A DNA stretch of 64,000 nucleotides from Labrys okinawensis (GTDB taxonomy: Bacteria; Pseudomonadota; Alphaproteobacteria; Rhizobiales; Labraceae): the NCBI RefSeq assembly GCF_002982075.1, contig NZ_PUEJ01000004.1, forward strand, positions 62,001 to 126,000, in the 5' to 3' direction. Positions 49,381 through 63,759 of the stretch are shown here, in pieces. Each line of letters begins with the position of its first letter. Within the stretch, counting starts at the first letter, position 1. The position numbers and the translations under genes were made by a program. Under the pieces are notes generated by a model that made no database searches, was not told the origin of the DNA, and saw only the letters and a program-made list of their open reading frames with translations.

Positions 49381-52021
<2,641 letters not shown>

Positions 52022-52065
52022 TTAACACAACCATTCCAATCGGGGCAGAGGGGACGGCACGGGTT

Positions 52066-52089
52066 GGGGGGCGGGTCTTCAGACCCGCC
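52066..52089. repeat. REP palindrome 1 (GGGGGGCGGGTCTTCAGACCCGCC-type)
   Basis: A 24-base element, GGGGGGCGGG then TCTTCAGACCCGCC, immediately after the RAYT stop codon. It is the inverse of the element at 52116-52139 (22 of 24 matching), forming a REP pair. Confidence 0.8.
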
Positions 52090-52090
52090 A

Positions 52091-52723
52091 CTATTGCTCA
52101 GCAATGAAGTCAGATGCCGGGTCTGAAGATCCGCCCCCCAATTTTCGGCGCGCGCTCGACCATCGCCATTCAGTGCTATAAGTGCAAAGGCCTGCCTTAA
52201 CCGGATTGCGCTCGATATAGTCAATCGTTCGAGCCATTTGATCTTCGCTACGCATGTAACGGTCGAAATAATCGGCCTGCCAGAAAACGGCCTGCCGCCC
52301 CAGAATTCGATTGGCATGTGCGGCGGTGTAAGATTTCAACGACTTGACCACATCCGCCAGGCGCCAGCCATCCTTCAAGTCGAAAAGGCAGTGCACGTGG
52401 TTGGGCATGATGCACCAAGACCACAGCCGGTAGCGCTGCATGTGGAAAGCAAGCAACGCACTCTCGACCAGCAAAGCAATGTCTACATTCGCCAACCAAC
52501 AAGCCCCCATCCCCTCGTCGAGCTTCCTTTCCACACGCCGTCGCATCTCCACTGATGTTTCGCGGCGATCTTCAACCCAGGCGGGGAGGCTATCCGCTAG
52601 ACGAAACGTGACGAATTGAACGATTTCAGGCGTATCGAAATGTGGCAAACCGTGCGGCTGGTGCCAGCCGCGGTGGTTCTTAGCGTCGGAAGACGAGTTG
52701 TCAGCGCCGGTTCCTTGTTCCAA
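52091..52723 (-). CDS. REP-associated tyrosine transposase (RAYT)
   Basis: Y1-type single-strand nuclease/transposase related to IS200/IS605 TnpA; 210 residues from TTG 52723, which has GGGAGG seven bases upstream. The HUH metal motif is 'IMPNHVHCLFDL' (residues 106-117), and the signature 'FWQADYFDRYMRSEDQMARTIDYIERNPVKAGL' (148-179) contains the presumed catalytic tyrosines, typical of RAYTs. It is bracketed by REP palindromes (52066-52139 and 52744-52767). Its C-terminal 15 residues (GGGSSDPASDFIAEQ) are encoded by the downstream REP, and its start overlaps the recN end by 23 bases. RAYTs are domesticated and may process REPs; an upstream ATG at 52798 would place the REP inside the coding region. 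Confidence 0.85.
   Translation of the reverse strand: MEQGTGADNSSSDAKNHRGWHQPHGLPHFDTPEIVQFVTFRLADSLPAWVEDRRETSVEMRRRVERKLDEGMGACWLANVDIALLVESALLAFHMQRYRLWSWCIMPNHVHCLFDLKDGWRLADVVKSLKSYTAAHANRILGRQAVFWQADYFDRYMRSEDQMARTIDYIERNPVKAGLCTYSTEWRWSSARRKLGGGSSDPASDFIAEQ
52116..52139. repeat. REP palindrome 2 (inverse of REP 1)
   Basis: GCCGGGTCTGAAGATCCGCCCC followed by CC, the inverse of REP 1, encoding the end of the RAYT protein. The two together resemble a BIME-like paired unit. Confidence 0.8.
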
Positions 52724-54419
52724 TCTCTGCCCTCCCGGCGCTGGCCGGGTCTGAAGCCCCGCCCCCCAGCAGCCTGTCCGCCGCCGCTCTCGCCTCATCG
52801 GTCACATGGGCACCGGCGAGCATGCGGGCGATTTCCTCACGCCGTTTGTCGGTGTCCAGGGGGGAGACCCGGGTGGCGACCCTGTCCTTGCCTTCCGCCT
52901 GCTTGGCGATGAGGAAATGAGTGGAAGCGCGCGCCGCGACCTGCGGCGCATGGGTGACGTTGATCACCTGGACCCTGCCCGCCAGCCGCGCCAGGCGCTG
53001 GCCGATGGCATCGGCGACGGCGCCGCCCACGCCGGAATCGATCTCGTCGAAGACCAGGGTCGGCGCCGAACCGCGATCGGCCAACGCCACTTTCAGCGCC
53101 AGCATGAAACGCGAGAGTTCGCCGCCCGACGCCACTTTCATCATCGGCCCCGGGCGGGTGCCGGGATTGGTCTGGACCCAGAACTCCACCCTGTCGAAAC
53201 CATCGGGAGAGGCCAGGGTCTTGTCGCTCTCCACCGAGGTGGTGAACTTCGCCCTGTCGAGCTTCAAGGGCGGCAATTCGCCGTTCACCGCGGCATCGAG
53301 CTGGCCGGCGGTGGCCCGGCGTTTGTCGGACAGCACCGCAGCCCGCGCCTCATAGGCGAGACGGGAGGCGCGATCGGCCTGTTCCAGGGCCTGGAGCTGC
53401 CCCTCCCCTTCGTCCAGGGCCGCCAGATCCGCCGTGTAGCGCTCGGCCAGTGCCGGCAGGTCCTCCACGGAGACATCGTATTTGCGGCTTGCCGCACGCA
53501 AGGCGAACAGGCGCTCTTCCAGGCGCTCCAGTTCGGCCGGATCGAAATCGGCCTCGTCCAAGGCCGTCTGCAGCGCGATACGGGCTTCTTCCAGGGCGTT
53601 GAGTGCCTGGTCCAGCGCGGCGATGGCCGGCTCGACCAGCCGAGGCGCCTGGGCTCCCCGCCGCTCGAGACGCCGAATGATGGCCGCCAGAGATGGCGTG
53701 GGAGAGCCGTTGCCGCCGACCCCCTCATAAGCCTCCTTGAGATCGACGGCGATCTTCTCGGCCTGCATCATATGGGTGCGCCGCTCGGCCAGGGCTTCTT
53801 CCTCGCCGGGCTGGACATCGAGCTTGCCGAGTTCGTCGACGGAATGGCGCAGCCAGTCGCCCTCGGCCCGCGCCTTTTCCAGCCGCGCTCGGTGCTGTGC
53901 AAGAGACTGCGTCGCCTTGCGCCAGGCCGCGTGCTTGCCGGCCACATCGGCTGCCAGATCCTCAAGCCCTCCGAAGGCATCGAGAAGCGCGCGGTGGGAA
54001 GCCGGATCGGTCAGGGCACGATCGTCATGCTGGCCATGGATCTCGACCAGGGCAGATCCCGTGGCGCGCAGCACCTGCACGCTCACCGGCTGGTCGTTGA
54101 TGAAGGCTCGGGTTCGGCCGTCCGCCATCTGCACACGCCGCAGGATCAGGTCGCCATCATCGGATATGTCGTTCGCCTTCAGCACGGCACGGGCGGCATG
54201 ATCGGCCGGGACGTCGAAGACGGCACTGACCTGTCCCTGGCTCGCGCCATGACGTACCAGGGAACCATCGCCGCGTCCGCCCAACGCCAAGGCGAAGGCG
54301 TCGAGCAGGATCGACTTACCGGCGCCGGTCTCGCCGGTCAGAACGGACAGGCCGGCGACGAATTCGAGGTCGAGCCGGTCGATCAGGACGATATCGCGGA
54401 TGGCCAGTTGAACGAGCAT
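52701..54419 (-). CDS. recN: DNA repair protein RecN
   Basis: SMC-like ATPase for double-strand-break repair; 572 residues from ATG 54419. Walker A is 'LTGETGAGKSILLDAFALALGGR' (residues 28-50), and after the coiled-coil region come the ABC signature 'VASGGELSRFMLALKVAL' and Walker B 'TLVFDEIDSGVGG'. The family end would be around 'DEARAAADRLL'; here about 21 extra residues of unrelated sequence follow (GGGASDPASAGRAEIGTRNRR), read from a REP element and the RAYT leader. No strong ribosome-binding site is seen. The gene follows bamD on the same strand. Confidence 0.94.
   Translation of the reverse strand: MLVQLAIRDIVLIDRLDLEFVAGLSVLTGETGAGKSILLDAFALALGGRGDGSLVRHGASQGQVSAVFDVPADHAARAVLKANDISDDGDLILRRVQMADGRTRAFINDQPVSVQVLRATGSALVEIHGQHDDRALTDPASHRALLDAFGGLEDLAADVAGKHAAWRKATQSLAQHRARLEKARAEGDWLRHSVDELGKLDVQPGEEEALAERRTHMMQAEKIAVDLKEAYEGVGGNGSPTPSLAAIIRRLERRGAQAPRLVEPAIAALDQALNALEEARIALQTALDEADFDPAELERLEERLFALRAASRKYDVSVEDLPALAERYTADLAALDEGEGQLQALEQADRASRLAYEARAAVLSDKRRATAGQLDAAVNGELPPLKLDRAKFTTSVESDKTLASPDGFDRVEFWVQTNPGTRPGPMMKVASGGELSRFMLALKVALADRGSAPTLVFDEIDSGVGGAVADAIGQRLARLAGRVQVINVTHAPQVAARASTHFLIAKQAEGKDRVATRVSPLDTDKRREEIARMLAGAHVTDEARAAADRLLGGGASDPASAGRAEIGTRNRR
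52744..52767. repeat. REP palindrome 3, inside the recN 3' end
   Basis: GCCGGGTCTGAAGCCCCGCCCC followed by CC, same orientation as REP 2. The last 21 codons of recN (GGGASDPASAGRAEIGTRNRR) begin exactly at this element, so it was inserted at the original end of recN. Confidence 0.8.
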
Positions 54420-63678: not shown

Positions 63679-63759
63679 CGGTGTGCCGATCTCCAGATCG
63701 GCATTTTTTTGGGCAAACGCAGCATTTCGGACCATGCCGATCTGGAGATCGGCACACCG
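63679..63759 (+). repeat. Pair of REP-like palindromes in inverted arrangement; the first with a T-tract
   Basis: CGGTGTGCCGATCTCCAGATCGGCAT is written here in two parts, CGGTGTGCCGATCTCC and AGATCGGCAT (63679-63704). Its exact inverse lies at 63734-63759. Each half is itself the palindrome TGCCGATCT-NN-AGATCGGCA. Seven T follow the first on the plus strand, so that palindrome is an intrinsic terminator for the upstream gene pair. The second might serve the alkylation-repair gene from the other side. Confidence 0.8.

Follow-up and report, generated by a model that had tools for sequence, protein, structure and literature searches.

A RAYT gene, a REP doublet and a REP-encoded RecN C-terminus at the recN-ligA junction of Labrys okinawensis

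RAYT genes with REPs at their 3' ends and a downstream REP within a REP cluster were described in 2010 (PMC2817692). The canonical REP foot is GT[A/G]G (PMC6006769). A 2013 catalogue lists REPs that provide ORFs, among them ligase, uvrA and recB genes, with stop codons or residues; about 10% of the REPs in or at the ends of ORFs sit at the ORF end (PMC3733652). We analyzed the recN-ligA junction of Labrys okinawensis (G000) in a 64,000-nt stretch of its genome (the window, to which all coordinates refer) and compared it with four congeners (G001 to G004). Like the REPtron (PMC2817692), the locus combines an HUH/Y1 transposase gene, one copy per genome, with cognate inverted REPs; a REP lies at or over the RAYT 3' end and the downstream REP is part of a REP cluster, as in Smal4. 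Unlike the REPtron, it has a GGGG foot (GGAG or GGGA[C/T]C at the other RAYTs of the genus) in place of GT[A/G]G, a modest number of REPs and a host from the alphaproteobacteria, in which such genes are said to be few (PMC6006769).

The recN case is a further example of an already described type of event, REP-encoded protein ends in genes that include repair genes (PMC3733652). It shares with the cases of Di Nocera 2013 the REP-encoded residues and REP-supplied stops in a conserved repair gene, and differs from them in that the RAYT gene itself follows the tail and that a sister species shows the same site without RAYT. recN is not mentioned in the main text of that paper. The doublet resembles a REPIN (Bertels and Rainey 2011, PMC3116915) in being an inverted pair of about 78 bp with a variable loop that forms one long hairpin; unlike a REPIN, at several sites it stands in for other intergenic DNA of the relatives and is not a clean insertion. 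Rickettsia palindromic elements, as they are outlined in PMC3733652, likewise add residues to conserved proteins, but they lie inside ORFs and have no linked transposase, whereas here only a C-terminal tail is added and a RAYT gene is linked.

The recN-RAYT-ligA locus

The features of the locus are as follows.

49853 to 51988, minus strand: ligA, NAD-dependent DNA ligase; no effect on its start or leader, the latter conserved in G001 and G002
52064 to 52090, plus strand: REP2, inverted partner of REP1' (27-nt arms, 93% complementary); the pair is a REP doublet (REPIN)
52091 to 52114, no strand: doublet loop, 24 nt, locus-specific; the same loop is at the same place in G002
52115 to 52141, minus strand: REP1', direct repeat of REP1 at a distance of 628 bp (92% identity); encodes GGGSSDPA of the RAYT tail
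52091 to 52723, minus strand: RAYT gene, 210 codons from TTG, with NHVH, WQ and YIERNP motifs; TAG stop in the loop of the REP doublet
52730 to 52735, minus strand: putative RAYT Shine-Dalgarno sequence GGAGGG, read directly from the sequence, inside the RecN tail codons
52743 to 52768, minus strand: REP1, on the recN side; a family A copy that differs from the core consensus by one change (GGGGC); the same variant is in G002
52704 to 52766, minus strand: 21 RecN tail codons, GGGASDPASAGRAEIGTRNRR, from the sequence and the comparison of RecN loci
52701 to 54419, minus strand: recN, 572 aa; TIGR00634 at 472.8 bits over residues 1-551, last 21 residues extra

The genes follow one another on the minus strand in the order recN (54419-52701), RAYT (52723-52091) and ligA (51988-49853). 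The initial annotation had placed a RAYT gene between recN and ligA, and this identification was confirmed: the protein scores 85.3 bits with NCBIfam REP_Tyr_transpos (NF047646, cut-off 80), also matches Pfam Y1_Tnp, and aligns through MPNHVHCL and DYIERNP with the HxH motif and the catalytic Tyr115 of E. coli TnpArep (4er8). It had also called recN and ligA usual neighbors, in agreement with the 25 of 30 loci in which the ligA start lies within 1.5 kb of recN. RAYT likely starts at the TTG at 52723, which GGAGGG precedes, and not at the ATG at 52798. The end of RecN overlaps the start of RAYT by 23 nt (52701-52723) in different frames, and because of this overlap RAYT translation may be coupled to recN. 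A scan for sigma-70-type promoters found none. For SOS control of a recN-RAYT transcript, the pattern GTTC-N7-GTTC was counted 41 times in the window against 39 expected (chance level) and was not found upstream of recN.

RAYT has a GC content of 0.56 against 0.67 in its flanks, and the other RAYTs of the genus show the same trend. It is a single-copy gene in G000, where the next RAYT is 45% identical and has other flanks. IS200/IS605 elements occur in multiple near-identical copies; no second near-identical RAYT was found in this genome. Searching a genome collection with RAYT gave distant relatives only (at most 52% identity), none of them from this genus. The longer RAYTs of the genus that were examined each have their own flanking palindrome. 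At the other RAYT loci of G000 to G004 (L052-L068) the palindrome foot is GGAG or GGGA[C/T]C, not the canonical form. The nearest congener RAYT (G001, 57% identity) was considered as the source of the family A REPs and rejected, its flanking palindromes being TGTCAGCC and GGCTGACA.

Family A REPs at the locus and in the genus

Three family A REPs lie in the recN-ligA gap, one before RAYT and two after it. The initial annotation was correct in seeing REPs on both sides of RAYT; their number is three and not two. REP1 and REP2 make the inverted outer pair that flanks RAYT. The hairpin of REP1' and REP2 has a predicted RNA fold of -57.2 kcal/mol (z -7.3). REP1' and the loop encode the RAYT tail GGGSSDPASDFIAEQ in the same REP frame as the RecN tail, and both proteins contain GGG-x-SDPA, as had been noted earlier. 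Other apparent GGGSSD tails (L204, L214, L220, L225) have no Pfam match and are therefore probably not genes.

The palindromes had been taken for REPs, and the genome search bears this out: family A is spread through the G000 genome, with 53 matches to the REP core GGGGGCGGGTCTTCAGACCCG against none for the reversed control. Up to three mismatches were allowed and some matches were counted on both strands, so that 53 is a maximum. The same search found 38 matches in G001, 30 in G002, one in G003 and five in G004. Family A agrees with canonical REPs in being a short, mostly extragenic palindrome near gene 3' ends, most copies starting within 9 nt of a stop codon. It departs from them in copy number (at most 53, where canonical REPs usually exceed 100 per genome) and in its 5' foot, GGGG and not GT[A/G]G. 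Inverted doublets with locus-specific loops, the REPIN arrangement, are found at many loci. At the family A sites of G000 and G002 (L190-L227) a REP start 2-9 nt from the stop is usual, and convergent genes often have one next to each stop, a placement also reported for other REP families. At 63680-63758 of the window lies a doublet from a different REP family, GGTGTGCCGATCTCCAGATCGGCA, which has many identical copies in G000 and G002.

RecN ends and the proposed replacement of DNA by REP doublets

RecN residues 1-551 correspond to TIGR00634 model positions 1-561 of 563, a full-length equivalog match. The C-terminus then reads LL-GGGASDPASAGRAEIGTRNRR up to the TGA stop at 52701-52703; the tail begins inside REP1 and extends 21 residues beyond the model end. 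The initial annotation had described 21 unrelated residues that begin at the REP, and we find the same. Its statement that the RecN C-terminus was replaced is valid for the unconserved tail after LL and overstated for the protein, since the family-conserved part is complete. Only the unconserved three to eight residues after the last family-conserved Leu-Leu were lost. None of 28 other RecN loci has the G000 tail, and its first nine residues are found only in G002 among them. Elsewhere only a few residues follow the last conserved ones (14 in G002), and the G000 tail is the longest among 29 RecN loci of the order. RecN of G000 and G002 share 97% aa identity. The dN/dS of recN is about 0.03 against G002 (dN 0.011, dS 0.34) and also against G001. 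The gene is still under strong purifying selection and the REP doublet has not damaged RecN.

G002 has no RAYT at this site. It carries REP1, the same locus-specific loop and REP2, and its RecN ends in GGGASDPASDFIAE followed by a stop, containing GGGASDPAS. G001 RecN ends in LLASGADKLK, followed by one family B-like REP, and no family A doublet is present there. The RecN ends of G004 and G003 are LLHMAK and LLQAR, respectively, and all three congeners retain a native end. Such a short end is ancestral because G001 and G004 share GAAGTAGCG at the recN stop. The G001 tail was also inspected as a possible decayed REP1, and the match of about 10 of 15 bases by eye was not convincing. Since loops are locus-specific elsewhere, the doublets of G000 and G002 are one event, and the REP doublet at recN predates the G000/G002 split. 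As G002 has the doublet and a tail without RAYT, the RecN tail comes from the REP doublet and not from the RAYT gene. The earlier claim that the element supplies the RecN stop and tail can be kept for the REPs and dropped for the RAYT gene or its insertion as the source. The initial annotation had also staked its reading on RAYT-less relatives not carrying the same 21-residue tail; G002 has the first nine residues and then differs, which goes partly against it.

It is quite improbable that homologous recombination between congeners brought in the recN-ligA junction and that the differences in REP, RAYT and tail hence reflect mixing and not local gain or loss. Different REP families at one site across species, as at the amidohydrolase gene described below and at recN, would fit such an import, but no mosaic step is seen in the recN and ligA flanks, which are 94 and 97% identical to G002 and 86 and 84% identical to G001, with ordinary divergence up to the REPs.

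At several sites the family A doublets take the place of other DNA: a terminator-like stretch common to G001 and G002, a 250-270 bp stretch common to G000 and G001, a 14-15 bp gap, or a different REP family. Opposite the lineage-specific doublets (L206, L214, L205, L208 and their orthologues) the relatives have unrelated intergenic DNA or another REP family, and no clean empty site was seen. An amidohydrolase gene (L240, G000:C3:99700-100200, minus strand; L241, L242, L243) has a different REP family at its 3' end in each of three congeners and gives a second REP-tailed protein in G000. After the common ...LDALL, the protein continues with GGGSSDLPASNHP and a stop from a family A REP in G000, with LGSQASSLFFPSN and a stop from another palindrome in G001, and with LDHTKDLVRGPQASGP and a stop in G002, where a family B' doublet follows. 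G003 has a short plain end. The loss of the native recN end fits this replacement pattern of REP gains in the genus. The same pattern could arise from unrelated steps of rapid intergenic turnover, and few sites were compared. As a tentative and rather doubtful generalization, the REP doublets of the genus would displace the DNA at gene ends, for instance through template switching or repair at hairpins, without clean insertion; orthologous 3' ends would receive different REP families in each species, the C-termini of RecN and the amidohydrolase would have been rewritten repeatedly, and recN-ligA in G000 and G002 would represent a RAYT locus collapsing to a bare doublet.

History of the RAYT gene and significance of the RecN tail

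We consider the following account probable as a whole. A family A REP doublet with its RAYT gene would have reached the recN 3' end in the common ancestor of G000 and G002, displacing the native recN stop and the few unconserved codons before it. Translation of recN would now pass through REP1 to the next in-frame stop, giving the 21-residue, near-neutral tail, and the reading of RAYT would likewise continue through REP1' into the loop. By analogy with its family, RAYT most likely acts in trans, cutting single-stranded REP hairpins and moving them; the REP gains that followed the G000/G002 split speak for this indirectly. Recombination between the direct repeats REP1 and REP1', or RAYT excision, would later have removed the intervening 628 bp in G002. 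What remained would be a doublet through which the RecN frame continues into the final codons of the former RAYT gene (SDFIAE).

The junction in G002 looks as expected from a crossover between direct copies, its left part matching the REP1 variant and its right part the REP1' neighbor: the single REP1 is the GGGGC variant of G000, followed by the REP1' side sequence (ATCTGAC). Three family A sites besides recN are common to G000 and G002. G000 and G001 have other DNA in common at a site that holds a family A doublet in G002, and G001 and G002 do so at a site that holds one in G000. These lineage-specific doublets show that family A was mobile in both lineages once they had split. Although G001 and G002 have family A REPs, neither yielded a RAYT with family A flanks. 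Since G002 gained family A REPs after the split and no cognate RAYT was found there, RAYT is probably older and was then lost from G002. Some E. coli strains are known to have lost a REPtron through deletion (PMC3733652), and RAYT loss is expected to leave behind REPs that have no RAYT (PMC3686654). The earlier view that the insertion is recent was not supported: the doublet predates the split, and RAYT was probably deleted from G002. Another RAYT could mobilize family A in trans. The G002 assembly is a draft in 140 contigs, and some of them (C106, C136) break off at family A REPs, so that a gap could hide a RAYT copy.

The direction of the RAYT change is judged on G000 and G002 with G001 as the nearest outgroup, and two species alone cannot fix it; a RAYT gain in G000 is less likely than a loss in G002. 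In the gain scenario, which we think unlikely, the doublet came first and a RAYT unit (RAYT plus one REP copy, 628 bp) was inserted beside REP1 in the G000 lineage only. It gives the same two structures and fits the finding of a family A RAYT in G000 only. According to the literature, however, RAYTs are single-copy genes that pass vertically and do not jump like an IS (PMC2817692; PMC8049555), and the activity of family A in the G002 lineage needs a cognate RAYT there. Loss from G002 is thus the reading we retain.

The RecN tail is probably tolerated and close to selectively neutral. In E. coli a ClpXP signal at the RecN C-terminus is important for function (PMC10714372), so that the tail may affect RecN stability. 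This signal, together with the RAYT start and Shine-Dalgarno sequence within the RecN tail codons, would fit a functional tail, acting for example through altered ClpXP recognition of RecN or through coupling of RAYT translation to recN. We regard a functional tail as very improbable: the REP-tailed RecNs of G000 and G002 diverge after nine residues, native RecN tails vary freely across the order, a C-terminal Flag-tag left the MMC-resistance phenotypes of E. coli RecN unchanged (PMC13235916), and the search upstream of recN found no LexA-type box. According to the summary in PMC12306157, ribosomes in E. coli can be stalled by REPs lying up to 15 nt from a stop codon; any such effect on recN may be altered because the recN stop now lies past REP1.

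The locus shows mobile palindromes adding tails to conserved proteins with the protein core unharmed. It also offers a paired natural comparison at one site, with and without RAYT and with and without the REP doublet. If the replacement of DNA at gene ends is general, it would bear on how REP doublets spread, a mechanism described as poorly understood (PMC8266576).
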